From: a virus
Strand: one strand, 5' to 3'
Virus record (IMG/VR): IMGVR_UViG_3300042691_012768
Span: 1-32,394 of that record
DNA length: 32,394 nt
The notes under the pieces were generated by a model. That model was not told the DNA's origin. It saw only the letters and a list, made by a program, of their open reading frames with translations, and did no database searches. A program made the position numbers and the translations under genes. Shown one piece after another: positions 1,130-26,839 of this stretch; the stretch's first letter is position 1, and every line of letters begins with the position of its first letter.

Positions 1130-4100
1130 ATGATTACTGTCACATCAACTTCTAATTCAACATATGAAGGATTTGCTAATCAAACTATTTTTACCTTTTC
1201 TAGTAGTGTATATGGAGATAATGCGTTTCAAAGAGTAAAATATTCTTGGGGTGATAATTCTAAAATACAAGAAACAACCGAAAAAGTAACAACAAAAAAA
1301 TTTACTAATGATGGAACTTATAATGTCACTGCTTCTGTTGATTATTTAAACAAAGGTAAGTTATATACAAACATTGTTTCTTTTAGTTTTGTTATAAAGT
1401 CTGTACCAAAAAATAAATTTGATATAATAAAAACTGTTAGGAATGAAACAGATCCATTATATGCTAGATCTACAAATTTTTCATTTGTTCCAAATAAAGA
1501 TTTATTTGGAACAAATAACGAAAGAATTAAATATATTCAGTGGGACTTAGGTAATGGTATAATATCAAATAAACCAATATTAACAGGAGTTACGTTTGAT
1601 TCTTCTGGTATGTTTGAGATAAAAATGGTTGTTACTACCACAGATAATTTCGTATACGAAGATTATCAAATTATAACAATTCAAGAATATATTAACGATT
1701 CTATAAAATTTACAAAGGTTCCTCCTCCAACCTATGCTGGTCATATAAACAGATTTCCGTTTGAATTAGAAATAACATCACCCATAACAAATGGACAAGA
1801 AAATATTGTGGATTTATATGCGCAATTTTCTAGATCATATGATATGTTAGATGTCCCTAATAAAAATTCATTTTTAAGACCAGAATGGAAATTTTTAGAT
1901 ACATCACCATCATTACGACCTATTAGACATATTAAAACAACCAAAGTTGAAGATATCAGAATAAATCAATTTGGTGAAAGAGTTTCTACTGGTGGTTATT
2001 TTGTAGGAGTAAGAGAAAAAGCTAGTTTTTATTTTATAGATGATTGGTATAACCAAGATCAGGTTATAAAAAATGAACAATATACTACTATATGGGCTAC
2101 TTTAAGAAGTAATCTAATAAGAAATAATAAGTCAACAGATAACATAGATGGACTTCATCCTAGTAATGCTAATAATACAGCACAAACATGGTGTCCTTAT
2201 GTTACATTATGGAGAAATCCAGAAGTAATAAAATATACTAGAAATGGTGTAAATCCTATAAATGAAAATCCATGGCAAGGATCTGACGTTCCTTTTGTTA
2301 TGACAATAGGTTATAACAACCCAATATTTCCTGATAATCATAATACAGAAAATTCTATTCGTTTATATGATAGAGATGGTGGATTTGCTCATTATGTACC
2401 AGCTTTAAATGAACCTAGTATAAATTTAGAAATAATAGAAAACTCAACTAAATTACCGTTAAGTTCTTTTTTTACAAAAATAGAAATTCCGTATATAAAG
2501 TATAAAGATGATGATAAATTATTAACAGGTGGTTATTATAGAAATACCTATAAACAAATTAATTCAAGTGTCATTCAATTTTCATCAAAAGCAGAATTTA
2601 ATGAACCTAATCTAGAAGCAAATAATTATAATCCTAATATATGGATTTTAAATCCAATAACATCTAAAATAAATGTATCTCAATATATTTTTACTACTAA
2701 TAGTATTATTAATAGTCCACAATATTTTTATACAAATTCAATAACAAATTATAATAAACTATTTATAAAACAGAATAAACCAATTCCTTCTGTTAAAAAC
2801 AATAAAAATATGGATACTTGTATTTCTTATGAAATACCAATGGAGACAAAAAAAATACCACACTTGTCTAGTATTTTTGATAATAGTAGATATTTGAGTG
2901 GTTTGCATTCTGTGGCAGCTTTGAACTTTCCAACTTACCATGCATGGGTTTCTGATGTGGAATTAGATAAAATATACAGAGTAACCTGTGATGGTAAAAT
3001 TTATAGAAATATAAACCTAAAAACATTAAAAATAAATTTTAATTCATCTAATTTAATTCCTAATAATTTAGTATTAGATAAAAATTTAAATTTGTATGCA
3101 AGTTTAATTGGATCTAGACATATATTAAAATTTGATGACAATGGTTCTTTTTTAACTTCTTTGAATTTAAATAATATAATCCCTATTTCTATTGATGTAG
3201 ATAAGGATAATAATTTATATATTAGTGGAATATATAGAGATCAAACACAGAAAAGTGTGTTATTGAAATATAACAGTTCTTTAACTTCTTTATTATCGTC
3301 TAAAGAATATAATAATTGTTTTCTAGGTAATATATTAGTTTCACCTAATAATAAAATTTATGTTGTAAATAATGGTCATTTAGGAAAAGATTTAAAACCT
3401 AATTATAGCAATAATTCTTTTATAGAAATATTAAATACATCAACATTTTCTACTATAAAAAATTTAACAACGTTCCCTTTCATAAAACATTTATCTATAG
3501 ATAAAAATGAATCTATAATATTTAACTATGGTCTTAATAGTGTTGGTAGAATAACAGAAACTGGTTTAGTCAATAAAATAAACATAAAAAACGTAAAGCA
3601 ACAATTCGATGGTGTTAAAAATATTATAGAAGGTATTTCTTATAATATTAATAATAAAATTTATGTTTTAAATTCTATTGATAATTTAGTTCATGTTGTT
3701 AATTCTGATACTTTTTTAGAAGAAAAAAGTTTCTATATAAATCCTTCTAATATTTCATATAAAGTAAATAATCAAGGTCAATTAATAACACCATTTTCTT
3801 TAGAAGAATCAAAAAATTCATTAGGTATAAGATCAAATGGAGATTTTGTTGGATGGAGATGGAATTATAAATTCACATACAAAAAAACACCAAATAAAAT
3901 AATAATAACAACCAAATCTCCATTAATATCATTTAACAGAACAAATAGTTTTAAGGTTTTTAATATTAATGAAAATTTTGATATGTCTAGATACATGTAT
4001 GATGTTAGTCATATGAAGACATTAAAAGAAAGTCCATTTCTTTATAATAATAAAATGTATGATGATGAAATAACACAAGCCAATCTATACGATATTACAG

Positions 4101-4963
4101 GATTGATTAGATCACTTCAGGATCAATTAAAAGACTTATTAAAGGTTGATCGTCTTAACCAAGATGAAGAGGCAATATCTTTATTAAGATATCGAATTAA
4201 TCAGGCATATGATTCTATGAAAGAACTTCTCGATTCTTCTATGTTTACTTCTGTTACTAGCAATCAGAGTGGATTTTTTGGATCTATATTAGGAACATTC
4301 CCCTTTTCTCCTGATGATTTAGGTATTTCCACATATTCTAAAATAGCAAATTTTGTATCAAATACAGCAGATATAGACCTATGTAACGTAAAACATCTAT
4401 ATGATATAATGTCTAAAATAGATTACAACGACGAAACATATAAAATAAAATTTCCTAATGGAATATCTAGAATAGTTGATTTTCTTTCAATATCTCCGAA
4501 AAAATTGATAGGTGTACAATGTAGATGTGGGGACACCTTTAAATTGAATCAGTATGCATATGAAACATGTAAATTTTGTGGTAGAGAAAAAATATCTAAT
4601 AGAGGTAAAAAAATAATTGATGTAGAATATAAAGTAACTGCTGGAAATCCTGTTGTATTAAAATACAAAGATATGAAGTCCAAGTATAGAAAAATAAACA
4701 CAGGATTATTAAATAACTCAAATAAATATACGATAACAGAGTTAGCTACATCTATAGGATTACCACTTAGATGGTACGAATCTTATGAATTTTTTGAATA
4801 CGTTCCTATATCTAATTCAAATATGATAGAAAATTACATAGATTGGTCCAATCCACAAACAACTATTTCTGAAAAACAAGATATAAAAACTTGGTATGAT
4901 TCCAACAGAACTGTTGATAGAATCATAGACTTTGAATTGCAGAAGGGATTAGAATTGATTTAG
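1130..4963 (+). CDS. Giant virion/baseplate protein: PKD domains, beta-propeller, C-terminal zinc ribbon
   Basis: 1277 residues, ending in TAG. The N-terminus has two PKD-like beta-sandwiches: residues about 1-90, with YSWGDN and a DGTYNVTASV strand, and about 95-185, with WDLGNG and SGMFEIKMVV. After a middle region of unknown fold, residues about 600-910 show NHL/WD-like propeller blades, for example LVLDKNLNLYAS and ISIDVDKDNNLYISGIY. Residues about 950-1040 are helical (SLQDQLKDLLK). A C-terminal zinc ribbon follows, with C1131, C1133, C1147 and C1150. The position directly after the gp6-like gene matches T4 gene 7, a wedge protein of similar size, but I see no gp7 sequence features. A structural role in the baseplate or its fibres is likely. 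PKD and propeller domains usually mediate protein or sugar contacts. There is no Shine-Dalgarno sequence; another ATG at 1125 hits a stop almost at once. Confidence 0.7.
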   Translation: MITVTSTSNSTYEGFANQTIFTFSSSVYGDNAFQRVKYSWGDNSKIQETTEKVTTKKFTNDGTYNVTASVDYLNKGKLYTNIVSFSFVIKSVPKNKFDIIKTVRNETDPLYARSTNFSFVPNKDLFGTNNERIKYIQWDLGNGIISNKPILTGVTFDSSGMFEIKMVVTTTDNFVYEDYQIITIQEYINDSIKFTKVPPPTYAGHINRFPFELEITSPITNGQENIVDLYAQFSRSYDMLDVPNKNSFLRPEWKFLDTSPSLRPIRHIKTTKVEDIRINQFGERVSTGGYFVGVREKASFYFIDDWYNQDQVIKNEQYTTIWATLRSNLIRNNKSTDNIDGLHPSNANNTAQTWCPYVTLWRNPEVIKYTRNGVNPINENPWQGSDVPFVMTIGYNNPIFPDNHNTENSIRLYDRDGGFAHYVPALNEPSINLEIIENSTKLPLSSFFTKIEIPYIKYKDDDKLLTGGYYRNTYKQINSSVIQFSSKAEFNEPNLEANNYNPNIWILNPITSKINVSQYIFTTNSIINSPQYFYTNSITNYNKLFIKQNKPIPSVKNNKNMDTCISYEIPMETKKIPHLSSIFDNSRYLSGLHSVAALNFPTYHAWVSDVELDKIYRVTCDGKIYRNINLKTLKINFNSSNLIPNNLVLDKNLNLYASLIGSRHILKFDDNGSFLTSLNLNNIIPISIDVDKDNNLYISGIYRDQTQKSVLLKYNSSLTSLLSSKEYNNCFLGNILVSPNNKIYVVNNGHLGKDLKPNYSNNSFIEILNTSTFSTIKNLTTFPFIKHLSIDKNESIIFNYGLNSVGRITETGLVNKINIKNVKQQFDGVKNIIEGISYNINNKIYVLNSIDNLVHVVNSDTFLEEKSFYINPSNISYKVNNQGQLITPFSLEESKNSLGIRSNGDFVGWRWNYKFTYKKTPNKIIITTKSPLISFNRTNSFKVFNINENFDMSRYMYDVSHMKTLKESPFLYNNKMYDDEITQANLYDITGLIRSLQDQLKDLLKVDRLNQDEEAISLLRYRINQAYDSMKELLDSSMFTSVTSNQSGFFGSILGTFPFSPDDLGISTYSKIANFVSNTADIDLCNVKHLYDIMSKIDYNDETYKIKFPNGISRIVDFLSISPKKLIGVQCRCGDTFKLNQYAYETCKFCGREKISNRGKKIIDVEYKVTAGNPVVLKYKDMKSKYRKINTGLLNNSNKYTITELATSIGLPLRWYESYEFFEYVPISNSNMIENYIDWSNPQTTISEKQDIKTWYDSNRTVDRIIDFELQKGLELI

Positions 4964-4994
4964 TATGTTTTAGTATAATTATATTATTGTAATA

Positions 4995-7900
4995 ATGAAC
5001 CCTTATTTGTTGTCTATAGTCGGAAGTTGGCCTTATGAAAAATATGTTTTTAATATAAATCGTGATGTCATTGATTTTAGATATATAAATCTACCAACAA
5101 GTTTTATAATTTCTCCATATTATTCTGAAGATAATAATCTTGTTAAAAAAGAATATTCATCACCAAATATTGGGTTTTCACCTTCTTTCATAGGTGTAAG
5201 TTCTAATAAATCATTTGTTTATAATGATAATAATTATGAAATAGAAACTATAATAGAATCGGATACTACTATAACATGGACACCATCATCAATAAGAAAA
5301 AATAATTTTGGTAATCATATTGGTTGTATGATGTTAAGAACAACCGATAATAATTTTTTTGGTGTTGTTACGTATCCTACACAATTATTTCTTTATCCTA
5401 AAAAGACAGAAGTATTAACAAATTATGCTAATTTAACAACAGACACATTAAATAATACTTTTTCATCATTGTCTGAATTAAATTATTTTTATACAACCAT
5501 ACAACAGACAAGTGCTCAATTAAGTGCTTCTGTTATTACGTCTCCTATTCTTTCATCATTATATAATGTAGTTACTTCTTATGAAAGTTTTGGAACAGAT
5601 ATATATTCTGTTTGGTATCAAAGAACTAGTTCCATAAATTTCTCAACTGTACTTAATTTTAATAGCTCTATTGATATAAGTATAACTAATACATCATTAA
5701 GTTCTTATTCATACTATCTTCCGCAAACATCTATTAATTATTTTTTAAATGACGTAGAATACCAGATCAAAAAAACAGAAATATTAAACAATATAAATTA
5801 TTATAATGATTTTACTATATTGATAAATCTTACATCTGTAAATTATAAAACAACATATTTACAATTAACTTCTAAAACATATTCATTTCAAACATCTTCT
5901 GTATTATTAAGTTCTGATAATTTTCAATTTTCTAATCAATATTATTCTAATATAATAAAGGGAAAACATAGTGAATATCTTTCAAAGGCACCAGCAATAT
6001 TACCTTTAAACACAGTTTCTTTGAGTAGTATAAAATATAGTTTATCTGGAAATATAACACAAGGTAATAAAGAATTAATAAAGTTTACAGATAGTTATAA
6101 TCCAATAACATATAATGTTAATTTAGAAAAATTAGGTTGTAAAATACGACCTGATACAATAAAACTTTCTTATTTTATACAATATATAGATTATACATCT
6201 AAAAATAATACAATTAGATCTATTGGAGATACATATGATGATTATAGTATAGATACGGACAATTCCTTAGAGGCTTCATATATATTAAATAATAATCATC
6301 CCGAAAAAACATTAACTTTTCAACTTCTTCAATCTGCTATTGATCCATCAAAAAGCATGGAATCATTAGAAAACTGTGTTTTAAGTGCGTTTTTAAATTA
6401 TGATACGTGTAATTTCAGATATCAAAACAGAGGAATTATAGACTTTGATGCTTCTTATGCTATCTTTACACCAATATCAGGTGTTCCAAATACTTCTTTA
6501 AAAGCTAGATATATCGCAGATTCTTCTTTTATTTTAGATAACGAAACAGTTCATTCTACTGTATATAGTTTATCAAGCTTTCCTTCTATAAATTTAAATA
6601 CCCCAACATCTTTAACAAATCATAATAATTGTGTAAATTGGGAATTAAAATATCCACCATATTATTATAGTTTTAAAGTATCTTACAATGATAATAAACA
6701 GTTTACAAAGTTTGAAAACGAAACTTGTTTAAATTTTTATTTATCTTCTACTGTTTTATCTAATGTTAAAAATACTATTAGTGAAAATTTTGAAGAACAC
6801 TATTCTGAAATTGATTTATATACATCTGTTTATTCAGACTTTGATTTGATAGAGCTTCCATTGAAAGACTATGGTGACTATGATTATATTAAATATGAAA
6901 TAGCAAATACTGATCAATCTTTCATAAAAGATAGAATTAAAGCATATATTTTAAGTTCTACATACGTCAACTCTGAACAGAAATATGTAATAGCATCTGA
7001 ATATGATATATTGAATCCTTCATATGTGAGGGCTATTTCTGGATGTTATTTGAGAGTTGTATATAATTTAACCTATGGTGGTACAGATTTAACAATTAAA
7101 CCATCATTATCTACACTATTAGGAAATTTTGATGCTTATTGGTCAACAACATTTCCTATCGGTACTGATTATGTACCTAGAAATTTAATAAATCCTATAT
7201 TAATAGATACATTAAATCAAGATATATCTAGTATTACTTTATCCGTTGCTAGACTAACCAGTGATCAGGAAAATATAGATTTAACAATGTCTAATATTGT
7301 ATGGACTATTGATGGAGATTATGACGATTTAATAATAGAAAATAAAACAAAAACAGCACCTATAGGTGATGACTTAACTATATTACAAAATAACTCATCT
7401 TATCCGTTTTATATTTCAAATGAAATAAAAATATCAGGAATAACAAATAAACCATTTTATGTTACATTATCAGCAGTATTTTATGAAACAAAAACTACTT
7501 TATATGTAGATCCATATTTATTTGATTTATATTATGAAAAAAGAATAGATGTTGTGTATGATATAGTTGATGATAGAAATAAAATAAAGTTATTAAAACT
7601 GGATTGTAAAGTTCCTTTTTTTAATGATTATTTTAATGTTGGAGATGAATCTTCTTTGTTATGGAAATGGGATTTTGATAATATTAATACAGTAGATGAT
7701 GTATTACAAATAACTGCATTCTCTTTAAATTCTGATATTGAACTAGTATCATCTTTAGATTTATTTTATGAAAAAAATTATATAAATGATCTACCCATAT
7801 ACACCGAGAGTAATATATTATTAGCAAACAATATTAGTAGTTTATATGTATTAATTGATGTTGATATATCTTTATCTGAAAAATTTTATCCTTTTGATGT

Positions 7901-10040
7901 TAGTGTAGAAGTATATGATTCAGGTCAAATAATAACAGGAAGTGAAACAATTTATGTAAATTCATATCCGGATACATCTATATTTTCTACAGATTTTAAA
8001 ATAGTTTATCCTAAATTCGAAAATACATTTTTAGTAGATACTATTAGCAATTTACGTTCCATGACCAGACCACCAATTGGAACTAATATTTTAAATTTAA
8101 GTCCTACTAATATAAATAATTTTAATACTGATATTTCATCTCTAAAATGGGTGATAAATTCTGTCAAATCACCATTATCTTCTTCTTTACAAACTAACTA
8201 TACTTATACTAGTAGTTATGTAAAAAATGTATCTGGGTTTTTTGATCCGTTATTAACCTATGATTTCAATAACTATATTTATAATATAAAAAATTATAGA
8301 AATTTAGAATATATAAATGGTATATCATCAGTTCCTATTTTAAATCAAACACAGTTTGATTTACTTTGTTCTTATTTAGATATTTCATTATTAAGTTCTA
8401 AAAATCAAACATTAGAACATGTTTATTATGATATAAATTTTTATCCATTAGCTACATCTTTATATGTAACTACTACTTCTTTTTATACGTCATCATTTAA
8501 TGATACACAGGGGTATAATGTCATTAATAGTTTGCCTAATGTTTATAGTAAAGTTTTTTATACATGTACTATAAATTTAAATCAAACCGAGTACACTTCT
8601 TATTATGTTGATTATTGGTTATCATCAATAAACATTTTTTCTTCTGATGATAATACTCTTATTTCATCTTTTAGTTCGGATTATATTTCAAATAATTATA
8701 ATTTGGTAGATTTTTTTACTGTTACAAACTACACTACATCAGTAGATTATAATATAAAATTTACAGAAATTGAGAAAAATGCATATTATGAACATGATAT
8801 AAGTTTAATTGCTGAAAATGTTTCTATACAAAATTGGAACAAACTTTATAATTTTAAGAAAAATGCAACTGTTGTTATATCAACAGCTATGGAATTTGAT
8901 ACATTCCCTACTATATTTTCCATTCCAAAATTTGTTTGGATTCCGGATTTTTATTATGATGCATATACAAAACAAAAAGTTCCAAAGAAAACAAATAAAT
9001 TTTTAAAAATATTATCTTTAGACGATTATGATTCTACTTATAAAACATATTTAACAGGAAAAACGTACGGAAATTTAATAAATGGATATCAAAGTTATGA
9101 TATAATATTACAAGGCATTCAGGATTTTGAACTAAAAGCCAACGATCCAGTTCAGATTGTTTTTGGTGTTAATACGTCTAATAAATTAAATATATTATCT
9201 TCTCAAATAATTGATACACCTAGCGAATATAGTATATATGGGTCTAATGAAATTAGAATAAACGATCTTAAAATTCCAATATATCCAGAAATATATTTAG
9301 ATGAAGGAATGACATTATCTGTAACTGCATTTAACAGATTCTTTAAATCATCAGGCGGATATTCTTATTACTTATTACCTAATTTAAGTTCTACTGAATT
9401 AGATTTACTGTATTATCCTATAACATCTCAAACAGAATCAAGAGTTTATGATTTAGATGATAATCTAATAAACCAAAATATAATTAACATTAATCCAAAA
9501 TTGGATAAATATCAACCAATTAAGTTATTATTTTATCCTGAAACAGTTTCTGTAAATTTAGATAAAAACAGAATAATAAAAGTAAAACAGATATTAGAAA
9601 CAGATCCTATAAATTCACCAAATATTATAGATTATGAAAATTCTTTTGTAACATATCAATTAAGTTCTAAATATTGGGTAGTATCAGCAGAAATGCCAGC
9701 TGTGTCCAATGGTTACTTGGATGTTTTTTATTTAACTGTAGGTGATCCATATTATCCACTGAACATATCTGATTATGAAGTAGAATCATTTATATTAACA
9801 GCATCTGCTTTAGTTGCATCTAAAATAACCGATTACACGTTTAATAACTATTCATTAACAGCATATACAGAAGATAGAGAATTATGGGATACAGTTTATT
9901 CCTATTGTATTGGCAATGAAGAAACCACACAACAATATAAAACATTATATAGTAAAGTAAGTAGTATTAGTTCTCAAACAGGAATGTTGTCCACATACGA
10001 TGTTTTAGCAGTAAATAATAATTATATAATAACAATATGA
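4995..10040 (+). CDS. Very large Ser/Tyr/Asn-rich virion protein of unknown family
   Basis: 1681 residues, the largest protein here. I do not recognise the family. It is rich in Ser, Thr, Tyr, Asn and Ile, poor in Cys, and reads as alternating beta strands and short turns throughout, with no signal peptide or membrane segment. Around residue 889 LLWKWDFDN resembles the core of a PKD/Ig-like sandwich, and SSLKWVINS further on is a similar motif, so it is probably a chain of Ig-like beta domains. Many segments have the form LSS-Y-x-LSS. It starts 31 bases after the previous TAG behind an A/T-only leader and overlaps the next gene by 4 bases (ATGA). Position between baseplate and fibre genes points to a baseplate-attached fibre or a long tail-associated structural protein. 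Enzymatic activity cannot be excluded, but nothing suggests it. Confidence 0.6.
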   Translation: MNPYLLSIVGSWPYEKYVFNINRDVIDFRYINLPTSFIISPYYSEDNNLVKKEYSSPNIGFSPSFIGVSSNKSFVYNDNNYEIETIIESDTTITWTPSSIRKNNFGNHIGCMMLRTTDNNFFGVVTYPTQLFLYPKKTEVLTNYANLTTDTLNNTFSSLSELNYFYTTIQQTSAQLSASVITSPILSSLYNVVTSYESFGTDIYSVWYQRTSSINFSTVLNFNSSIDISITNTSLSSYSYYLPQTSINYFLNDVEYQIKKTEILNNINYYNDFTILINLTSVNYKTTYLQLTSKTYSFQTSSVLLSSDNFQFSNQYYSNIIKGKHSEYLSKAPAILPLNTVSLSSIKYSLSGNITQGNKELIKFTDSYNPITYNVNLEKLGCKIRPDTIKLSYFIQYIDYTSKNNTIRSIGDTYDDYSIDTDNSLEASYILNNNHPEKTLTFQLLQSAIDPSKSMESLENCVLSAFLNYDTCNFRYQNRGIIDFDASYAIFTPISGVPNTSLKARYIADSSFILDNETVHSTVYSLSSFPSINLNTPTSLTNHNNCVNWELKYPPYYYSFKVSYNDNKQFTKFENETCLNFYLSSTVLSNVKNTISENFEEHYSEIDLYTSVYSDFDLIELPLKDYGDYDYIKYEIANTDQSFIKDRIKAYILSSTYVNSEQKYVIASEYDILNPSYVRAISGCYLRVVYNLTYGGTDLTIKPSLSTLLGNFDAYWSTTFPIGTDYVPRNLINPILIDTLNQDISSITLSVARLTSDQENIDLTMSNIVWTIDGDYDDLIIENKTKTAPIGDDLTILQNNSSYPFYISNEIKISGITNKPFYVTLSAVFYETKTTLYVDPYLFDLYYEKRIDVVYDIVDDRNKIKLLKLDCKVPFFNDYFNVGDESSLLWKWDFDNINTVDDVLQITAFSLNSDIELVSSLDLFYEKNYINDLPIYTESNILLANNISSLYVLIDVDISLSEKFYPFDVSVEVYDSGQIITGSETIYVNSYPDTSIFSTDFKIVYPKFENTFLVDTISNLRSMTRPPIGTNILNLSPTNINNFNTDISSLKWVINSVKSPLSSSLQTNYTYTSSYVKNVSGFFDPLLTYDFNNYIYNIKNYRNLEYINGISSVPILNQTQFDLLCSYLDISLLSSKNQTLEHVYYDINFYPLATSLYVTTTSFYTSSFNDTQGYNVINSLPNVYSKVFYTCTINLNQTEYTSYYVDYWLSSINIFSSDDNTLISSFSSDYISNNYNLVDFFTVTNYTTSVDYNIKFTEIEKNAYYEHDISLIAENVSIQNWNKLYNFKKNATVVISTAMEFDTFPTIFSIPKFVWIPDFYYDAYTKQKVPKKTNKFLKILSLDDYDSTYKTYLTGKTYGNLINGYQSYDIILQGIQDFELKANDPVQIVFGVNTSNKLNILSSQIIDTPSEYSIYGSNEIRINDLKIPIYPEIYLDEGMTLSVTAFNRFFKSSGGYSYYLLPNLSSTELDLLYYPITSQTESRVYDLDDNLINQNIININPKLDKYQPIKLLFYPETVSVNLDKNRIIKVKQILETDPINSPNIIDYENSFVTYQLSSKYWVVSAEMPAVSNGYLDVFYLTVGDPYYPLNISDYEVESFILTASALVASKITDYTFNNYSLTAYTEDRELWDTVYSYCIGNEETTQQYKTLYSKVSSISSQTGMLSTYDVLAVNNNYIITI

Positions 10041-12202: not shown

Positions 12203-12204
12203 TT

Positions 12205-14067
12205 ATGATAATAACTGACCTTTTATATAACGATTTAAGTGTTTTTGCTAATTTAACTGCTGGTACAATTAATGCAAATTCTATTATTTTGTCTGGATAT
12301 GATTTTGTTAAAAGATCAGACGACATTTATACCACATTAAGTGAAAACTCTAGCGTAAATTGGAATTATCAGGGGTCGGATATAAAGAGTCTTTCATCTG
12401 GTTGGGAAAGTGCTTATACAACTTTATGTGCGTTTTCTTCCTATTGGGCAGCTGGTGCTAATTATGTACAGTATATAAACTGGAATGATGAAGATGATTC
12501 ATTGCAACTAACAGGTGGAAATACAGTTTATTTATCTGCTATATATGATAGGTCTAAAAATTATTCTGACTCAAATTTTGTTTCTATAACAGGTGGGGAA
12601 ATAACTAGTGATTTACATATATTATCTTCTTTAAAGATAAACGCATCATTAGAAGTTGGTTCAGGTAACGTAGTTTTATATTCTGGTGATAATAAAGTTG
12701 GTGTAAATACAAAAACTCCTAATGAAAGTTTAACTGTAATTGGGTCAATTAGCTCAAATAATATAATTTATGATAAAACAGGAGATTCTAGAAACTGGAA
12801 CTCTGTTCACACCAATGTATTAAGTAATTCTTCTAAATGGGATTCTATTTATACATCAGTAAGTTCAACCTCATCTAATTGGGATTCTGTTTATACTACT
12901 GTTTTAGGTAATTCTTCTAAGTGGGAATCTATCTATGACTCAATAGAAGCAAACCTCAACTGGGATTCTGTTTATACTACTGTTTTAGGTAATTCTTCTA
13001 ATTGGGATTCTGTTTATAATTCAGTAAAAGATATTAGTTCTTCTTGGGAAGATGTCACTACTCAAGTACAAGCAAATAGTTCTTCGTGGGAATACTACAA
13101 ACATTTTTTTAGAGGTTCTTTTGCATATTCATCATTTTTCCCACCTAACTATACTGTAAACGATATAGTTTTAAATGATAAACCTACTTATAATGATTAT
13201 TTAGATGTTCTTAATACACCTGATAATAAGTTTTATATTTGTATAAAAGAACTACCGGATATATATGGATTTCCTGCACCGATAGACTCATCTGGTAACT
13301 ACATGTCGGAGTATTGGAGATTATTAGAGGTAGATAGTTTTATACATGGAATAGGTTCTTCTGCATATACTACTGTATTAAATAATTCTGCTAATTGGGA
13401 TAATTCTATTCCTATAAGTTATAGTCATTCTAATTTTTTACCTTTGAGTGGTGGTAAGATAACAAGTAATGTATTATTTCTAAGTAGTGTAACTATTTTA
13501 GGTAATTTAAGTGCTACTGGTACACAGACATTCTCAAATACTATTTTCTCTACTACCACATCATTGTGTGTTATACATGTAGGTGCTGGTCCAGCATTCT
13601 ATGTTGGTAATGATGGGGATTCGGATATTGCTTCATTCTATGATATAGATCAAAATGTTGAAGTATTACATATTGGTGGACTTAATTCTCTCAATCCGAA
13701 TGTAGGTGTAAAAGTATCAAATCCAAATAAAGATTTCACTGTAAATGGTGAAATTAGTTCAAATTCTATTATTTATGACATAAATGGTAATTCTACTGAA
13801 TGGAATTCAGTCTTTTCATCAGTAAATTCCGTTTCTTCAAATTGGAATTCTGTTTACACTACAGTAAGTTCAAATTCTGCTAATTGGGATAATTCTATTC
13901 CTATAAGTTATAGTCATTCTAATTTTTTACCTTTGAGTGGTGGTACAATTGATGGTGATATATCAGTTTTAAGTGGTGTGTCTGTTTTCGGTAATTCATC
14001 TTTTGTTGGAGATGTATCAATTTCTGGAAAATTAACAGATGTATTAATAGACGCTGGTTTGTTTTGA
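12205..14067 (+). CDS. Tail fibre protein with NWDSVYTTV repeats
   Basis: 620 residues. The middle contains tandem units of about 14-15 residues of the form NSS(K/N)WDSVYTTVLG, at least eight recognisable between roughly residues 195 and 300, with more near 385 and 535. They are probably coiled-coil or beta-coil shaft repeats. Three copies of a second module, SNF(L/V)-x-(L/I)-(S/T)GG-x-I followed by a hydrophobic stretch ending LSS or LSG, lie near residues 130, 410 and 570. The fibre motif VG(V)-x-T-x-x-PNESLTV occurs twice and matches the previous gene. The gene ends with TGA just before the 97-base gap with a hairpin. It probably forms a second fibre or a partner subunit. The repeats are conserved at DNA level too, as direct repeats of 41 and 73 bases, so copy number may vary between relatives. 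Confidence 0.72.
   Translation: MIITDLLYNDLSVFANLTAGTINANSIILSGYDFVKRSDDIYTTLSENSSVNWNYQGSDIKSLSSGWESAYTTLCAFSSYWAAGANYVQYINWNDEDDSLQLTGGNTVYLSAIYDRSKNYSDSNFVSITGGEITSDLHILSSLKINASLEVGSGNVVLYSGDNKVGVNTKTPNESLTVIGSISSNNIIYDKTGDSRNWNSVHTNVLSNSSKWDSIYTSVSSTSSNWDSVYTTVLGNSSKWESIYDSIEANLNWDSVYTTVLGNSSNWDSVYNSVKDISSSWEDVTTQVQANSSSWEYYKHFFRGSFAYSSFFPPNYTVNDIVLNDKPTYNDYLDVLNTPDNKFYICIKELPDIYGFPAPIDSSGNYMSEYWRLLEVDSFIHGIGSSAYTTVLNNSANWDNSIPISYSHSNFLPLSGGKITSNVLFLSSVTILGNLSATGTQTFSNTIFSTTTSLCVIHVGAGPAFYVGNDGDSDIASFYDIDQNVEVLHIGGLNSLNPNVGVKVSNPNKDFTVNGEISSNSIIYDINGNSTEWNSVFSSVNSVSSNWNSVYTTVSSNSANWDNSIPISYSHSNFLPLSGGTIDGDISVLSGVSVFGNSSFVGDVSISGKLTDVLIDAGLF
12880..13001 (+). repeat. 41-bp perfect direct repeat in fibre gene
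   Basis: A 41-base sequence beginning TGGGATTCTGTTTATAC occurs at 12880-12920 and again, identically, at 12961-13001. It encodes one full WDSVYTTVLGNSS repeat unit. Nucleotide identity, not only protein similarity, indicates recent duplication or gene conversion inside the fibre shaft. Confidence 0.9.
13384..13945 (+). repeat. 73-bp perfect direct repeat in fibre gene
   Basis: The 73 bases at 13384-13456 recur exactly at 13873-13945, 489 bases apart. Each encodes the NSANWDNSIPISYSHSNFLP segment and the following LSGG. Recombination between the copies would delete or duplicate 163 codons in frame, because the 489-base spacing is a multiple of three. Confidence 0.92.
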
Positions 14068-14069
14068 AC

Positions 14070-14104
14070 ATTTCTATAAATTAGTTGTAATAATTTATAG
14101 AAAT
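14070..14104. terminator. AT-rich perfect hairpin between fibre genes and PKD gene
   Basis: The arms ATTTCTATAAATTA (14070-14083) and TAATTTATAGAAAT (14091-14104) are exact reverse complements, with a 7-base loop. The hairpin starts 3 bases after the TGA of the 620-residue fibre gene. The stem is almost all A/T and has no clear U-tract, so it could be a weak terminator, an RNA processing site or a 3' stabilising structure. It is the strongest hairpin I noticed in the window. Confidence 0.5.
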
Positions 14105-14135
14105 ATTTATTAACTGGTATTTCTGTGGTAGATAA

Positions 14136-14153
14136 GATAAATAATAATAAATA
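14136..14153 (+). promoter_or_regulatory. Candidate T4-type late promoter motifs
   Basis: GATAAATA (14136-14143) and AATAAATA (14146-14153) match seven of the eight bases of the T4 late promoter core TATAAATA. They lie after the hairpin and 11-28 bases before the ATG of the 706-residue gene. In such an AT-rich sequence chance matches are expected; the position in the longest gap on this strand is the only extra support. No Shine-Dalgarno sequence is present. Confidence 0.3.
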
Positions 14154-14164
14154 AAATATTATTA

Positions 14165-16285
14165 ATGGCTACTATAACTACAGGAAATAATACAGCTGAA
14201 CCTAGATTCTTTATATCTTCATACTATGCTTTAGTAAATAAGCCAATATTTTTTAAGTTTGATGTACCAAAATCATTAAACACATCTAATAACGTTAAAA
14301 CTATAAAAATTTCTACAGGAGAAAATAATGTAAATGATATTGTTCTGGATTTAGACCCTAATACACCATTACCAGATAATGTAACATATACTTTTAAAAG
14401 TGTAGGTGATTATTATATAAATTATACAGTTACATATGTTAATAATACTTCAAAAACATATTATTTAGAAAATCCTATAAAAATATATAATGAGTGGCCT
14501 AAGTTTTCTCAAGAAGATATAAGAATATTAGGTGAAAATATTTTAGAATTACCTTACAAGTTTGATGATATAAAAATAAATCCAAATGAATTTGGTGTTC
14601 ATAGTGTTTATAATAATTCTATAAAAAAACTATATGATAATCTAGAATACCTGAAAGCAAATACAAGAATTTTAAACTCAAAAACTCCTTCTTTGTATTA
14701 TGGATGGGTTGGTGTTAATGGTTCTATGGTGGCTGATGGGTTGTCGTGGCATACTCCTAATTATAAAAAAGATTTTTATACCGAACCATCTTCTGTACCA
14801 ATAAATAATGGATTTTTAAATTTAAACGATGTATGTGAAACTAATAACCTTTTATTTACGTTAGATGATAGAGGAATAAAAATTTTTAAAAAATCTAATA
14901 CTTTAGTTCCAATTAATTTTGTTAATAAAGACGATTTTATAAATACGTTTACAAAAGTTGTATCAATAGATATATCTGACGATGGTAAACTATTATTTAT
15001 TTTGGATTCTTTTCAAAATAAGCTATATAGAATAGATATAGACTATGATTTTAATAATAGTATATATGAAAAATACGAACCCACTTTCTCTATAACATAT
15101 AATATTGGATCTTATGGTGATGATTTAGATCCATTTACGTTTAATAATCCTATACAGGTTTTATATGTTAATGAATTTGTGTATGTTTTGGATTATAATA
15201 ATAAATGTATAAAAAGTTATAATAATAATTTAGACTGGATTTTTACTTATAAAAATGATATTTTCGATACAGATATACCAATATGTATAACTATAAATCC
15301 AGAAAGTAATTTTTTGTATGTTTTAACCAAATCTACAATTTATGTATTTGATTTTAAATCAAATAATATATTATCTAAAATAGATATTACGAACATTAGT
15401 AACTTAAATCCCATTAAAATATTTTTTGATACTTCTGGTGAATTTTTTTATGTAATAACTAATGATTCAACAATAAATACAACAACACCCACTAGTAATA
15501 TATTCAAGTATACATCACTAGGTTTATACATGGATAATTTAGATATACCTACAGATTTGTATGTTGGTGGGAAAAATGGTGTAGACAGAGATATTCTAAT
15601 TCTTAGTAAAAGTCATATAGTAAAATGTCAAGAAATAACTGATATTTTGGAAACAGGTGAAGGAATTCAAAAAAAATATTGGAGTTTAGATCAAATTTTA
15701 ATTAAACAAGATGAATTAAACCAAGATATTGTAATAAATAGAGTTTTTAGTAGATTAATTAGTAACATAATGAATTTTAAAAATTCATTAGAATCTAAGT
15801 TAGATTTAACATCAGAAAGTACTTCAGCGGGAATTATAACATATTTTAGATTAACCCCCATAAAGGTAGAACAAAGACCATATTTAGGTGATGATATAGA
15901 GAATAATAATGTTTATGTTGGTGTAAACGAACTACACACTCCATCAGTTATAAATAGAGAATTAGAAAAAATATATAATAGTTTAATTTCATTAAAACAA
16001 TTTTTAGATATTAATGTTGTTTCTATTTCAAGTGAAACTGGTAGAGAAATTGATAAATGCTTATCTCCATTTTGTTGGTCTTGGAAAGCTATGTCTACCT
16101 ATAATATAACAAAACCTATGATAAGAGCATGTAATATAAATCCTATATCTTTCAAAGAATTAAGAAGAGATTTTCCTACTGATTATCCAACAATTATAGA
16201 TAAACAAAACCAAAAAGTAATATCTAAAACATGGTTTTATGCTAAAAGTTCATGTTGTGAAAATAATATAACACCATTGCAATAA
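14165..16285 (+). CDS. Virion protein with N-terminal PKD-like domain and beta-propeller
   Basis: 706 residues. Residues about 14-105 form a PKD/Ig-like sandwich (SVGDYYINYTVTYVNN strand). Residues about 215-490 show repeated propeller-type strands: VVSIDISDDGKLLFILDS, VLYVNEFVYVLDYNNKCIKS, ITINPESNFLYVLTKSTIYV and IFFDTSGEFFYVITND. The C-terminal 200 residues are helical, then contain SPFCWSWKAMS and the vicinal cysteines SSCCEN near the end. The domain order resembles the 1277-residue protein at 1130, so the two may be distant paralogues. It begins after the hairpin gap and is followed by the next gene after one base, so it probably starts a new transcription unit. A structural role at the tail or baseplate is likely; I cannot name a T4 counterpart. 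Confidence 0.62.
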   Translation: MATITTGNNTAEPRFFISSYYALVNKPIFFKFDVPKSLNTSNNVKTIKISTGENNVNDIVLDLDPNTPLPDNVTYTFKSVGDYYINYTVTYVNNTSKTYYLENPIKIYNEWPKFSQEDIRILGENILELPYKFDDIKINPNEFGVHSVYNNSIKKLYDNLEYLKANTRILNSKTPSLYYGWVGVNGSMVADGLSWHTPNYKKDFYTEPSSVPINNGFLNLNDVCETNNLLFTLDDRGIKIFKKSNTLVPINFVNKDDFINTFTKVVSIDISDDGKLLFILDSFQNKLYRIDIDYDFNNSIYEKYEPTFSITYNIGSYGDDLDPFTFNNPIQVLYVNEFVYVLDYNNKCIKSYNNNLDWIFTYKNDIFDTDIPICITINPESNFLYVLTKSTIYVFDFKSNNILSKIDITNISNLNPIKIFFDTSGEFFYVITNDSTINTTTPTSNIFKYTSLGLYMDNLDIPTDLYVGGKNGVDRDILILSKSHIVKCQEITDILETGEGIQKKYWSLDQILIKQDELNQDIVINRVFSRLISNIMNFKNSLESKLDLTSESTSAGIITYFRLTPIKVEQRPYLGDDIENNNVYVGVNELHTPSVINRELEKIYNSLISLKQFLDINVVSISSETGREIDKCLSPFCWSWKAMSTYNITKPMIRACNINPISFKELRRDFPTDYPTIIDKQNQKVISKTWFYAKSSCCENNITPLQ

Positions 16286-16286
16286 T

Positions 16287-16898
16287 ATGAATTTAAAAAT
16301 TTACGAAACAACCATGTCATTAGTAAGTTCTGATAGAGAAGTTACTATAAATCAGTATGCGCCTTTTATTTTTAATATAAATCCTTTTAATTCGTTACCT
16401 GCTTCAAATTTAAATGAATTTAATTTTACATCTAAAATATATAAAATAGTATATGATTGGGGTGATGGTATTATAGAAACACAAAAATTATTACCATCTA
16501 GTTATGACTCATCTAATATATTAAATTATCCTTTTGTTAAGGAGTCTGGAGATCCTCGAAATTTCAAAAAAAGTCATACATATAATTTAAATGAAGAGTT
16601 TAAAAAAACAATATACGCCAATATAAACGTATATATGTTTGGTGTTGAAACCCCAATAAAACATAAATTTAGAATAAATTTAAAAGCACCAAGATTAGAT
16701 GGATCTAAAACCGGATTTTTTAAAAATGTTCATTTAATAAAAACTAAAATGTTTGATAAAGATAATAAAATATTATATATCTTCGAAGGAAAAGAACCAT
16801 CTTGGGTTTTCCCAGCAATTGTTGATTGGAGGGTAAAGGGAGGTGATTCAACAATAGTAAAGGGAGATGATTATGATGTTTATAAACTAAATATATAA
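16287..16898 (+). CDS. Small PKD-like virion protein
   Basis: 203 residues. The centre reads IVYDWGDGIIE, then after a long loop KKSHTYNLNEEFKKTIYANI, the YDWGDG...HTY signature of a PKD-type beta-sandwich, here with an insertion between the signature strands. The last 60 residues contain a second beta-rich piece (ILYIFEGKEPSWVFPAIVDW). The gene lies one base after the preceding stop and one base before the next start, with no Shine-Dalgarno sequence. It resembles the N-terminal sandwiches of the proteins at 1130 and 14165 and may be a stand-alone adapter in the same structure. The fold assignment is fairly good; the role is inferred from context. Confidence 0.55.
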   Translation: MNLKIYETTMSLVSSDREVTINQYAPFIFNINPFNSLPASNLNEFNFTSKIYKIVYDWGDGIIETQKLLPSSYDSSNILNYPFVKESGDPRNFKKSHTYNLNEEFKKTIYANINVYMFGVETPIKHKFRINLKAPRLDGSKTGFFKNVHLIKTKMFDKDNKILYIFEGKEPSWVFPAIVDWRVKGGDSTIVKGDDYDVYKLNI

Positions 16899-16899
16899 A

Positions 16900-17676
16900 A
16901 TGGGAAAATATTTTAGTCTTACATTTTATGAAAAAAACCTACAGGAAGGAGAGCTTTGGTTTAGAGATACCAATAACAACGTTCTTTCTGTATCAGAAGC
17001 ATTAAAAAATGTTTTTATAAAGTATAAGGATGTTGATAATAAAGATATTGATTCTTTAACTTTTTATGAACAAGTTAATACAAACACACAAATTTTAAGA
17101 TTTGATGTTATTCAAGATGTATTTTTTATCGAAACAAATAGAGGAAATATATTCGATCAAATAATAGTGGAAAATGGTGAGATTAAACCAAAAACACTAG
17201 ATAATAACTTTACTACTAGTTTATCATCAAGGAGAGCTAATTTCCCTGATTATTGGTTTGATGAAAACAATAGAAAAATTTATATAGCATCAAATAAGGT
17301 AGAAAGTTATAACGGAACTTTAAGCGGTGTTAAAGTAAGTTATATGTTAGAGCAATTTGATATGAATACATCTATATTAGATGTTAAATACTTTTTTGAT
17401 ATAACTTTTAATTTTGGTATAAATTCATTTTATAAAGAAATTCCAATAGTGGAACCTGTTCAATTGACATATAATAAAATTACAAAAACATTTAACATTT
17501 CACATATATGTAGAGGACCAAAAAAACAATTTGGATTAGTTAGCATAAACATATTAAAAGATCAAACATTAGATGTATCTTCAATAAATTGTTTTTTCCC
17601 ATTTCAGGATACAGCTAATGTTATTTATAAAAAAACAATTCAAAAAAAACTTTCAATTGATTCTGACTATTCATGA
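16900..17676 (+). CDS. Virion-cluster protein of unknown function
   Basis: 258 residues, family not recognised. The sequence is beta-rich, with an N-terminal MGKYFSLTFYEKNLQEGELW, then alternating strands and a YMLEQFDMNTSILDVKYFF segment near the middle. There is no signal peptide, membrane helix or catalytic motif that I can identify. It is packed between the PKD-like gene (one base away) and the 1151-residue LamG gene, whose ATG overlaps its TGA in the form ATGA. This coupling suggests production in step with the large neighbour, perhaps as a structural partner. It may be a diverged member of the same beta-sandwich set. Confidence 0.5.
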   Translation: MGKYFSLTFYEKNLQEGELWFRDTNNNVLSVSEALKNVFIKYKDVDNKDIDSLTFYEQVNTNTQILRFDVIQDVFFIETNRGNIFDQIIVENGEIKPKTLDNNFTTSLSSRRANFPDYWFDENNRKIYIASNKVESYNGTLSGVKVSYMLEQFDMNTSILDVKYFFDITFNFGINSFYKEIPIVEPVQLTYNKITKTFNISHICRGPKKQFGLVSINILKDQTLDVSSINCFFPFQDTANVIYKKTIQKKLSIDSDYS

Positions 17677-20600
17677 TTACCATATTTAATAATGCTTCTT
17701 CCTTTTATTGGTATCCTTTAAAATTTAATTTTCAAGGAGGACAATTTGAGTCTATTTATCAAAAATATTTTTTTGATAATGGGATGATATTTAATGGTCA
17801 TAATTTTTTATATCAATCAATGGATTATTCTGTTAATAATCAGACAACTATTTTTTTAACAGATTTGTTATCTTCATCTGAAATTTTTAAAAATAAAGAT
17901 AATCCGTTTGAATATTCAGAACTAAAACAAATTATAACTCCAATAAGTGAAAAGGATGCATATATTATAACACCAACACAGACAGTTGTATACTTTGGTG
18001 GAGATAAGCTAGGAGGAGCAAGAAGATTAATTTTACAGAAAACAGATAGAAAGGAATTTTCGGATATAGATATTATTAAGATTACTATAGATGAAACAGA
18101 TGAAAACTTGTGTTTTATTGAAAATTCGTTCGGATTAGTTTTAACATGTACTTCTGATACCGACTTTAATTGTTATTTTACAACAAAACAAAAACCATAC
18201 ACAAATAATCAAAGATTTGAATTTTTTTTAAATGATGATGGTTATATAAGTTTCTTTTTATGTGGTTCTAATGCATCTAAAGCATTAACAATAAATTCAA
18301 ATAATAGAATTGTTTTATCAACAGTAAGTTTTTCTAATCAAAGTTTTAGAGTTCCTAATGAATTTATTTTTAAATTAGAATGTTTTAAAAAAGTTAAATT
18401 TGATGAAAATAAGATAATAGATAGTAAAATAGTAGAATATAATAATAAACCAATAAATCCGATAGATAGTTTAATAAAAGATAACGATACATCTAAAAGA
18501 AGATATAATCAAAATTATTTGATTATGTTTCCTACATATACACCATTTATAATAGATGAAGAGGCTGTATATAATGTTGATTATTGTGGTTTAAAAAATT
18601 ATCAAAATCCTGATTATGATTATACTAAAGGACCATATTTTATAGAAGAAAATCCATATATAAGAAGATTATATTGGAAAATACACACAGGAACAAATCA
18701 AGAAAATGGTTATGATAATATATATTTGAGTTATACATCAAATAGCACAAAAATATCATTTAAACCAGACATAGAAACAGAATTTCAGTATTCACCATCA
18801 TGTGAAAGACTTCCTTTAAGTTCTTCTAATTTGATAGAATCTGGAGCTATTGCAGGAGAGACACCATTAACATCTGATAGAATTTATGGATTATCTATAA
18901 ATTATAAAAATACAGCACCAGGGCCATCTCAACCTACATCATTTTTTAGAGAAACTGGAACTTGGTTATGTTCTTGGTTAAATGGTACACAAGAGGGTAA
19001 AAAGATATGGGTGGACAGATATTATAATTCTGCTTATTATACTACTAATGAGGCTTTGTCTTCAAGTACATTAAAATATAATGAAAGATTAGACCCATCT
19101 AAACCATATGTGTATGATTTGCCTTCTACTATGATGTTAGAGCCTGGTGCTAGATATAAATATTTTAGACAAGGTAGAGATAGTGCAAAACAATTTTTAA
19201 CGTACCTGGATTATACAGCAGAAAATAATAGAGGGTCTAAAACATTAGATATAAAAAGTTGGGATAGTTCAACTTTGAAAGATTCATCTCCATATAACAA
19301 TAATGGTATTATTGTTAATAGGAACGTTTTACAGGAGAGTACTGAATATTATATATTCAATGGAGACAATCATATTATTTTGCCATCAACTTCTACTTTG
19401 TTAGAAACACAAAAAATGACCATTTCGATGTGGTTAAATGTTGATGATTGGTCTAATATATCTGGTTGGCAGATATTTGGAAATTATTATAATGGAGGTT
19501 GGGGGTTAATTAATAATAGTGGTCAAATATCTCCTTTATTGACATTTGTTGAAAACAAACAACAAAGAAGTTACGCTATAAATTATAGAGCTGGATTGGC
19601 AGATTCTTTTGATTTATCAGAATATAAAAATTCTAAATTTGAATGGGTTTTAAGATTACCAGATTTTAATTATTGGATGATTGATGTTAATAATTTTATT
19701 GCTTATAAGTTTGATAGCAATGGAAAATTAATAACAACGGATTCTAGTAATATTAAGAGATATATAAAAAATATATCACAAGTTTTATTAGATAAAGATT
19801 TAAACTTAATTATTTATGATAATATAGAAGGACAACTGTTAAAATTAAATCAAAATGGACAATCTGATAATTCATCTTTAACAAGTGGAATTTACTATAA
19901 AAGAATAGACTTTAGAAGTGACAACTCAATTGTATATTGTGACTCTGATGTAGGTGTTATAGACAACAATAATAATTTGTGGGAGGTTGTTGGTGAAAAT
20001 TTATATAAATTAACTGATTATGACCCTAATACTAGATATTACACAAACAAAAAAATAAAAGCACATATAGGAAAATGTCAAAACATAACCTGTGATAGTA
20101 GTAATAATTTATGGCTAATAACAAAAGACAATTTTTTAATAAAATTTGAAACTGCTACAGAAAAATTTAGTTTTAATAAAAAACTATTAGATGATTTTAT
20201 TGATTTTTGTAAATTAACAGACAAATCTTATCCTTATTCTTTTATAAATATAATAAGAACAACATCTAATGAGTTTTATGAAAACTGTAAACCGCTTCAA
20301 AAAAAATTGTATGATATAATAGTTGTTGTAGATGTATTAAATTTTAAGATATACTTTTTTCAAGAAACAGGTGAAATATTAAAGTTAATAGATTTAAGGT
20401 CATATATACAAGATGAAGAATTAAGATTTAATACAGATTGGAATTTTTCATGTAAGGGAGACTTTACTGGATTTTCATATTTAAGAAAGTTTAGTCCATT
20501 TTTAGATCCTAGTTTAAGTTGGAAAATTAAAACTTCTGATCATGCTAAACAAAAATTTGATTTTGTTACTTTGAACTATAATGTATCTTCATTACCTAGT

Positions 20601-21128
20601 AATTGGCATAATTTTTGTATGACGTTTGATGGGTTAGCTGGAAAAGTAAACTATTATATTGATTCTATACAAGTAGATAGTAAAGAAATTAATAAAAATT
20701 CTATAATTCACTATGAATATATGTCTCCTTTATTAATTGCAGCTACTACTATAAAAAATACAAGCTTGAATGATTTATTAAAAATAGAAGATGGTTACAA
20801 ATTTAAAGGTAAAATTTCAGATTTAAAAATCTATAATAAATGCTTAAATCAAGCTGAAGTTGAACAATTATACTTCTCAAATAATTATTCGAATGATAGA
20901 GGAAATATTAATTGGAATATAAATGTTGGAGAAAGAGATTATATTGAAAAAATAGATCACTTTTTTAAGTATAATATGCCAGGTAACAAATCAAATTATT
21001 ATAACATAAATATACATAACTTAAATGTTTCTGATAAAATAAAAAAACTAATAGAAGAATCTATACATAATAATATGCATAAAATATCACCACATAACAC
21101 TTTTTTAAACAAAATTAACTGGATTTAA
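17673..21128 (+). CDS. Giant virion protein with a split LamG-like domain and propeller-like insert
   Basis: 1151 residues. The first 500 are beta-rich and include GTWLCSW and KIWVDRYYN near residues 430-450. A LamG/concanavalin-like domain begins near 522: DIKSWDSSTLKDSSPYNNNG, then YYIFNGDNHIIL and MTISMWLNVDDW, the usual first strands of LamG_3-type domains. The closing strands appear much later, near 970-1070: WHNFCMTFDGLAGKVNYYID, then KGKISDLKIYNKCLNQAEVE. Between them, residues about 640-940 look like propeller blades (VLLDKDLNLIIYDNIEGQLL, ITCDSSNNLWLITKDNFLI). LamG folds generally bind glycans or proteins, so this is a candidate surface-binding part of the virion. The start overlaps the previous stop (ATGA). 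The domains are assigned by eye. Confidence 0.68.
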   Translation: MITIFNNASSFYWYPLKFNFQGGQFESIYQKYFFDNGMIFNGHNFLYQSMDYSVNNQTTIFLTDLLSSSEIFKNKDNPFEYSELKQIITPISEKDAYIITPTQTVVYFGGDKLGGARRLILQKTDRKEFSDIDIIKITIDETDENLCFIENSFGLVLTCTSDTDFNCYFTTKQKPYTNNQRFEFFLNDDGYISFFLCGSNASKALTINSNNRIVLSTVSFSNQSFRVPNEFIFKLECFKKVKFDENKIIDSKIVEYNNKPINPIDSLIKDNDTSKRRYNQNYLIMFPTYTPFIIDEEAVYNVDYCGLKNYQNPDYDYTKGPYFIEENPYIRRLYWKIHTGTNQENGYDNIYLSYTSNSTKISFKPDIETEFQYSPSCERLPLSSSNLIESGAIAGETPLTSDRIYGLSINYKNTAPGPSQPTSFFRETGTWLCSWLNGTQEGKKIWVDRYYNSAYYTTNEALSSSTLKYNERLDPSKPYVYDLPSTMMLEPGARYKYFRQGRDSAKQFLTYLDYTAENNRGSKTLDIKSWDSSTLKDSSPYNNNGIIVNRNVLQESTEYYIFNGDNHIILPSTSTLLETQKMTISMWLNVDDWSNISGWQIFGNYYNGGWGLINNSGQISPLLTFVENKQQRSYAINYRAGLADSFDLSEYKNSKFEWVLRLPDFNYWMIDVNNFIAYKFDSNGKLITTDSSNIKRYIKNISQVLLDKDLNLIIYDNIEGQLLKLNQNGQSDNSSLTSGIYYKRIDFRSDNSIVYCDSDVGVIDNNNNLWEVVGENLYKLTDYDPNTRYYTNKKIKAHIGKCQNITCDSSNNLWLITKDNFLIKFETATEKFSFNKKLLDDFIDFCKLTDKSYPYSFINIIRTTSNEFYENCKPLQKKLYDIIVVVDVLNFKIYFFQETGEILKLIDLRSYIQDEELRFNTDWNFSCKGDFTGFSYLRKFSPFLDPSLSWKIKTSDHAKQKFDFVTLNYNVSSLPSNWHNFCMTFDGLAGKVNYYIDSIQVDSKEINKNSIIHYEYMSPLLIAATTIKNTSLNDLLKIEDGYKFKGKISDLKIYNKCLNQAEVEQLYFSNNYSNDRGNINWNINVGERDYIEKIDHFFKYNMPGNKSNYYNINIHNLNVSDKIKKLIEESIHNNMHKISPHNTFLNKINWI

Positions 21129-26406: not shown

Positions 26407-26839
26407 AAATCCATATCTACAATATAGACATGCTGAAGGTTTAGGAGATATTATAGCTTGTACATTACATTCTAAACTTATATCTCCTATTACCTTTTTT
26501 TTAACAGGTAAAAAGGAAATGTGTGTATCCTGTGATAAAAGAAGACAAGCATTAAATTTTTTATTTCCTATAAAATTCTGGAAATTGTTTTTTTCTGATT
26601 ACGAATCTAAAGAAAATGATTTGGATTCATATTTTAATAAAAACTCTGAAATAGTAGAATCTGAACCAATTATAACAGAATCTAAACCAATTATTGATGA
26701 TAAAGATATCAGAAATAATTCTGATATAATAACTGGTTTTGAAAACAGAATGGTTTTACCTAAAAATTGTATCTTATTAAGAGAAACAGAAATAGAAATT
26801 GATGGTATGTTTTTCAAAACATTAATTTACAGAAAATGA
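26399..26839 (+). CDS. Small phage protein with CxxC...RR motif
   Basis: 146 residues of unknown function. Residues 12-20 (AEGLGDIIA) and the later CVSCDKRRQALNFLFP (C42, C45) form a pattern I associate with small conserved phage proteins: a short amphipathic helix, a Cys pair, then KRR and a hydrophobic helix. A single CxxC could bind metal as a dimer or be redox-active. Residues about 70-110 are acidic and low in complexity (SEIVESEPIITESKPIIDD), probably a flexible linker, followed by a C-terminal beta hairpin. It overlaps both neighbours (8 bases upstream, 4 bases downstream as ATGA), so it is translated with the chaperone and the ferritin-like protein. Membership in a head or tail complex is possible but not shown. 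Confidence 0.5.
   Translation: MNKNPYLQYRHAEGLGDIIACTLHSKLISPITFFLTGKKEMCVSCDKRRQALNFLFPIKFWKLFFSDYESKENDLDSYFNKNSEIVESEPIITESKPIIDDKDIRNNSDIITGFENRMVLPKNCILLRETEIEIDGMFFKTLIYRK

Follow-up and report, generated by a model that had tools for sequence, protein, structure and literature searches.

The window, a 32,394-base IMG/VR virus record, opens with a gp6-like baseplate wedge gene (3-1124, + strand; phrog_219, E 2.7e-13), the 5´ end of which is cut by the window edge. Behind it lie eight open reading frames (ORFs), here named A to H, all on the + strand, each no more than 97 bases from the next or overlapping it slightly. They occupy 1130-21128, and these coordinates, proposed in an earlier note on this DNA, agreed exactly with the ORF positions. 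The note had described some 20 kb of giant proteins built from PKD, propeller and LamG domains, which holds for A, E and H but not for the rest: PKD, NHL-propeller or LamG domains were found in only these three of the eight ORFs (3134 of 6617 amino acids (aa), 47%), while B, C, D and G have no PKD, propeller or LamG domain, C and D being fibre-like and F and G small. Single-sequence domain signals were weak except for the LamG of H, and it was the family profiles that made the PKD and propeller assignments firm. The module extends past H to ~26182, taking in I, J, K and L.

Relatives were collected from IMG/VR, where the gp6 profile found 299; the locus counts given below rest on 80 of these. 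Comparison of the window DNA with phage records gave no match, nor did A, its homologue in contig G010, or H by tblastn; the gp6-like gene matched 112 phage records (tblastn). A related contig of 131 kb, G003, encodes a T4-type portal, prohead protease, head closure, capsid, clamp loader, gp25, terminase, sheath and tube, and its capsid protein has at most ~35% identity to phage records among the matches listed, mostly cyanophages. This gene set, together with the gp6 and the gp15-type (T4) sheath stabiliser encoded in the window, places the clade, as judged from sequence, among the contractile phages of the T4 superfamily. Given the 299 gp6 relatives, the T4-type genes of G003 and the divergent capsid, we regard the clade as large, as part of the T4 superfamily and, within the collections searched, as uncultured. 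A host search with the gp6 profile in GTDB genomes returned 254 pattern matches and no relatives in bacterial genomes.

The module is kept in five related contigs (G003, G007, G008, G009 and G010), with identity to the window falling to ~20-35% in the last two. In G003, G007 and G008 the genes run in the order gp25, gp6, A, B, fibre, E, F, G, H, I, J, K, and the order is the same in G009 and G010 except that the fibre-like gene is placed after E. The views of single contigs were in part incomplete: piece boundaries cut through H of G008 and, in one comparison, through J of G007, which another comparison showed, and BLAST did not detect G in G009. Upstream, gp25 precedes gp6 in five of the six records above the cut-off. 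Downstream, the ORF next to gp6 is an A homologue in 77 of the 78 loci with a following ORF, the exception being a cut ORF of 217 aa, and A stays beside gp6 also in a subgroup whose later genes run on the opposite strand.

With PHROG profiles, the T4 proteins gp7 to gp12 were looked for in five clade contigs of 131-226 kb, with T4 and three Kyanoviridae as controls. The gp7 profile matched none of the five contigs and all four controls, as did that for gp8 (phrog_977); a second gp8 profile (phrog_438) matched zero of six in a search that held no control. Profiles for gp10 and the gp9/10 type (phrog_958 and phrog_677; three of four controls each), gp11 (phrog_963; one of four) and gp12 (phrog_910; three of four) likewise had no match in the five contigs. 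The absence is one by profile and concerns these five contigs, which may be incomplete. In hhalign comparisons of the window families with gp7-gp12 of T4 and cyanophages, none exceeded 15% probability, and none exceeded 3% when the comparison was repeated with a deep alignment of A and deeper ones of B, E, F and G. Thus, the lack of a recognisable gp7-gp12 behind the gp6-like gene, as first noted, was borne out, and no match that would speak against it turned up elsewhere, either by profile in the five contigs or by hhalign in the module families. These results also bear on an alternative in which A to H are mainly receptor-binding or fibre genes inserted behind gp6, with the true gp7 and gp8 homologues elsewhere in the genome. 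Such an insertion would fit the adhesion-type domains, the rearrangement of the genes behind A in one subgroup and the fragmentary nature of the window and perhaps of the related contigs. We consider it unlikely, however, as the gp7 and gp8 profiles detect their targets in every control and in none of the five clade contigs, and as A, unlike the variable fibre genes C and D, stays almost invariably behind gp6.

Protein A (1277 aa; 1130-4963, + strand) consists of two PKD-type domains (about 1157-1405 and 1469-1687, + strand), an NHL-type propeller (about 2618-3865, + strand) and a candidate helical core of the gpI/gp7 type (3977-4513, + strand). The PKD match of the single sequence (E 0.0013) lies under Pfam's cut-off; the family profile gave 6.6e-13 for PKD and 1.5e-9 for an NHL/Pizza propeller. 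In a predicted model of residues 95-1277 (predicted local distance difference test, pLDDT, 79.5; predicted template modelling score, pTM, 0.68), the propeller (model residues ~403-818) matched the surface-layer protein 1l0q (Z 29.2, root-mean-square deviation (rmsd) 2.4, 284 aligned). It is followed by long helices and then by a short helical region with the pattern YEKIANFv.N.sD.DTCnI..LYdL....ddF.LnYP..IKRlmd..SINqSrL.G. In G009 and G010, A begins at the residue equivalent to 180 and is without both PKD domains, which are therefore an add-on to a conserved remainder. At 4520-4582, A also carries paired CxCG / CxxC cysteines resembling a zinc ribbon, which are missing at the same positions in many relatives.

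From the pattern of the helical region, a match to P2 gpI was expected before testing. At 85% identity, 38 of the 55 complete A proteins were retained, and the core alignment omits the window and its closest rows (L072, L076, L077 and L078), where there is an insertion, as well as two rows from G009/G010. Among 34 A cores, no Pfam family recurred more often than Tail_P2_I (five, best E 0.082; two for the next family). Over 26 clade records, Tail_P2_I gave three matches, two of them in the A core (E 0.003 and 0.011; positions converted by hand from locus ranges), and in the controls it matched P2 at 8e-58 and none of T4 and three Kyanoviridae. Aligned by hhalign with nine gpI sequences, the A core reached a score of 20.7 (69 columns, E 0.022) in the register that was expected, above the maximum of 40 column shuffles (19.0) and above ten other module families as first tested (12.6-19.7); one gp7-type control scored 21.1 over 13 columns. 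A further Pfam family, CarbpepA_inh, appeared in two of the 34 cores (best E 0.005) and was taken as a chance match of a cysteine pattern.

Several observations weigh against reading A as a gp7 equivalent within a rebuilt baseplate. There is no Tail_P2_I match in 29 of the 34 cores, the five matching sequences are related rather than independent, and the third match among the clade records (E 0.029) falls in another gene. With a deeper alignment, E outscored the A core against gpI (23.9 over 58 columns, E 0.037), and every signal linking A to gpI is below usual significance. No match of A to gp7 was obtained by sequence or profile, including hhalign with the deep A alignment, structure searches of A against the PDB yielded only propellers among the matches listed, and a gp8 equivalent was not identified by profile in the clade contigs. 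A PDB profile search with the A core alone gave nothing relevant. As to the structural check that the earlier note had suggested, propellers filled the PDB matches listed for A and E, and the lack of baseplate proteins among these matches excludes nothing. Moreover, hhalign also fails among P2 gpI, Mu gp48, T4 gp7 and cyanophage gp7, and the weak score between A and gpI is therefore not evidence against a link. We take the resemblance of the A core to the gpI (gp7-type) core of P2 as suggestive, not proven.

The variable part of the module lies between B and E. B (1681 aa; 4995-10040, + strand) is the largest ORF and has no assignable domain. E (706 aa; 14165-16285, + strand) has a PKD-type domain (~14204-14488), an NHL propeller (~14690-15649) and a helical, Cys-containing C-terminus. 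Its family profile gave 5.5e-8 for NHL and 4.7e-4 for PKD, and its model propeller was matched with a Z of 24.9 (rmsd 2.6, 248 aligned), with propellers and no baseplate proteins among the PDB matches listed. A single ORF spans B and E in 17 loci, which include apparent repeats (L126/L127/L128, L080/L081 and L123/L125) and one ORF truncated where its locus ends (L103) and represent ~13 distinct phages; complete fusions are 1838-2033 aa long. In L139, L144 and L148, B and E are separate neighbours. The fibre-like C (721 aa; 10037-12202, + strand), which varies between relatives, and D (620 aa; 12205-14067, + strand) sit exactly at the B-E junction in the window. They are related to each other and have a repeat in common, VGxxTxxPN..LTVxGxISS, and G003 has no D counterpart between C and E. 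A paralogous origin of A and E was considered and rejected, the alignment being limited to the PKD domains (33%, E 4.5e-4).

The remaining genes up to H follow without interruption. F (203 aa; 16287-16898, + strand) and G (258 aa; 16900-17676, + strand) are small and conserved, F with a WGDG motif and a weak PKD resemblance, and G of G010 has a C-terminal extension with a Gly-rich domain (3.9e-17). The F form of G010 (L057, 11430-13130) continues past Thr/Pro-rich linkers into a long C-terminal extension, for which Pfam gave nothing at E 0.01. The variation of C and D between relatives and the C-terminal extensions of F and G in G010 form the pattern of a constant scaffold whose tips can be exchanged. 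H (1151 aa; 17673-21128, + strand), which alone had no match among PDB sequences, contains a LamG domain (E 2.7e-12; best stretch 20520-20861) and a propeller (~19620-20465) homologous to that of A (hhalign E 1.5e-12). PKD, NHL and LamG domains are found in extracellular proteins, and the best structural match of the A propeller is an archaeal surface-layer protein, as might be expected if the proteins were secreted or cell-surface products of infection and not virion parts. The tight + strand run with gp6, kept with gp25 and gp6 in relatives, and the detection of giant gp7-position proteins in cyanophage virions make this highly improbable.

Beyond H, the module continues with three possible anchors or connectors. 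I (273 aa; 21131-21952, + strand), a possible connector, is kept in all five of the contigs in which the module was followed. J (275 aa; 21937-22764, + strand), a further possible connector, has an N-terminal GDxIxxINxxF motif (21982-22017), and K (930 aa; 22761-25553, + strand) has the corresponding GDGLAKINYNF (22794-22829). The end of K (24243-25553) is made up of 267 aa rich in Lys, Glu and Asn, a run of Gly residues and a Hint domain, for which the PT-HINT match (E 2.8e-6) passes the cut-off; in G010 the K-like N-terminus is joined instead to a C-terminus of the tail-fibre type. The N-termini of I, J and K are alike when aligned by eye, and the GDxLxKINxNF-type motif of J and K recalls the N-termini of T4 gp9 and gp10 (GDxLxxxxxKINxNF); neither likeness is significant by hidden Markov model. 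This pattern could indicate that all T4 outer baseplate proteins are present one for one, diverged past recognition, with gp8 in B or G, for example, and gp9/gp10 in I to K. A profile of J and K indeed put S-SSM7_102 at the top of 27 and T4 gp10 next, but the E values are 0.03 and 0.14, and in the reverse search the gp9/gp10 N-terminal profile placed K only 19th. As the gp8-gp12 profiles were without match in the five clade contigs, and the domains of A, E and H are recognisable and unmatched by T4 gp7-gp12 profiles, we regard a one-for-one correspondence as quite unlikely.

Outside the module, the window encodes a DUF5856 protein (26836-27315; 7.4e-9) and, on the - strand, a helicase-type protein (28488-30152; Helicase_C_2, 1.5e-12), both beside the structural genes. 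In G003 (L018, 9966-16322), the capsid gene and gp25 are separated by genes for a clamp loader and a homing endonuclease, and the neighbouring genes alternate in strand.

On balance, we favour the reading that these genes specify the outer baseplate and tail tip, with A as the gp7 equivalent, B/E, F, G and H standing in for gp8-gp12 and C and D as fibres. The equivalence of A and gp7 is suggested by the fixed gp25-gp6-A order, the near-constant adjacency to gp6 and the weak Tail_P2_I signals in the A core. Placement in the virion, a complex of gp6 with A and any receptor binding are proposals that draw on what is known of contractile tails. The C-terminal helical core of A would pair with two copies of gp6 to form the wedge, of which the PKD domains and propeller of A would be the exposed, outward periphery. 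The rest of the outer baseplate, for which T4 uses gp8-gp12, would come from B/E, F, G and H, and these would carry C and D as exchangeable fibres inserted between B and E, with I, J and K as small anchors or connectors with swapped C-termini. Host contact would then shift fibres and periphery, releasing the wedges and allowing the sheath to contract. As far as sequence can tell, the propellers may bind host molecules or may be purely structural. A stricter version, in which gp8-gp12 were replaced outright, the propeller and PKD domains attached to a gpI-type core in A serve as permanent structural parts of the periphery and fibres were plugged between the B and E halves, is put forward only tentatively. 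The earlier note had posed divergence and rebuilding from adhesion domains as alternatives; we favour a mixture, in which most of A is PKD and NHL propeller but a core of the gpI/gp7 type may survive near its C-terminus. The inner scaffold of the landing gear was probably kept and the outside built from adhesion-type modules. If so, this clade, which keeps gp6 and gp25, would show how far exchange of the outer baseplate can go while the contraction machine is retained. A gp7-type wedge protein is common to contractile systems and gp8 is listed as a T4 core gene, and in the five contigs the clade shows neither by sequence.

How unusual this is can be judged against known phages. In the published T4 core list, gp6, gp8, gp25 and gp53 are included and gp7 and gp9-12 are not (PMC2993671), and gp7, gp10 and gp12 outside cyanophages are described as highly divergent (PMC3037559). 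In pelagi- and cyanomyophages, T4 gp7 is reported to be missing, with VrlC in its place, and carbohydrate-binding domains are reported in the baseplate operon (PMC7029224). Proteins in the gp7 position of cyanophages reach 5195-6483 aa (5195 aa for P-SSM2 gp7), S-SSM7 has two of 3007 and 3001 aa, Syn19_088, which carries T4-GC 969, spans 19,452 bases, and this giant gp7-position cluster was detected in S-SM1 virions (PMC3037559), which supports the reading of the module as part of the baseplate. Giant proteins behind gp6 are thus not new and are ordinary in distant T4 relatives, and the surprise implied by the earlier note is reduced accordingly; the lack of gp8, a core gene in those phages, goes further. 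The novelty lies in a single module kept across a large uncultured clade, and in the open-access literature searched we did not find described a propeller and PKD domains in the gp7 slot, the B-E fusion or the lack of gp8 by profile.

The baseplate operon of Kyanoviridae shares with the module the order gp25, gp6, giant protein and its many adhesion or carbohydrate-binding proteins (PMC7029224). It differs in that gp7 there matches the T4 gp7 profile and gp8 is kept, neither of which applies to the clade contigs, and in that the conserved core of gp7 is N-terminal, whereas the candidate core of A is near the C-terminus. Four S-SSM7 giants have YHYH and CBM domains and no PKD, NHL or LamG at E 0.01. 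The archaeal surface-layer protein 1l0q combines a YVTN propeller and PKD in one protein, as A does, but it is a cellular surface protein outside any phage context, and the likeness is one of fold only. In T4-like phages, P2 and Mu, the gp25, gp6 and gp7-type genes follow each other as gp25, gp6 and A do here, and TssG (of the T6SS), gp7, gpI and Mup48 have been proposed as equivalents (PMC6300606). With these proteins A shares the gene position and a weak Tail_P2_I resemblance of its core, but P2 gpI (176 aa) and Mu gp48 (180 aa) have no propeller or PKD that could be seen, and their sequence match with A is below significance. In phage Milano, wedge proteins of the gp6 and gp7 types form a 2:1 unit that serves as the attachment site of receptor-binding proteins (PMC10811340), an arrangement that fits a decorated gp7. 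Finally, A0A6J7XER1 in BFVD, a 'PKD domain containing protein' of an uncultured Caudovirales phage, matched the model of A structurally (E 5.9e-63, 1336 columns). Deposited without a function, it probably belongs to the A family, and A offers a concrete, testable gp7 candidate for such proteins.

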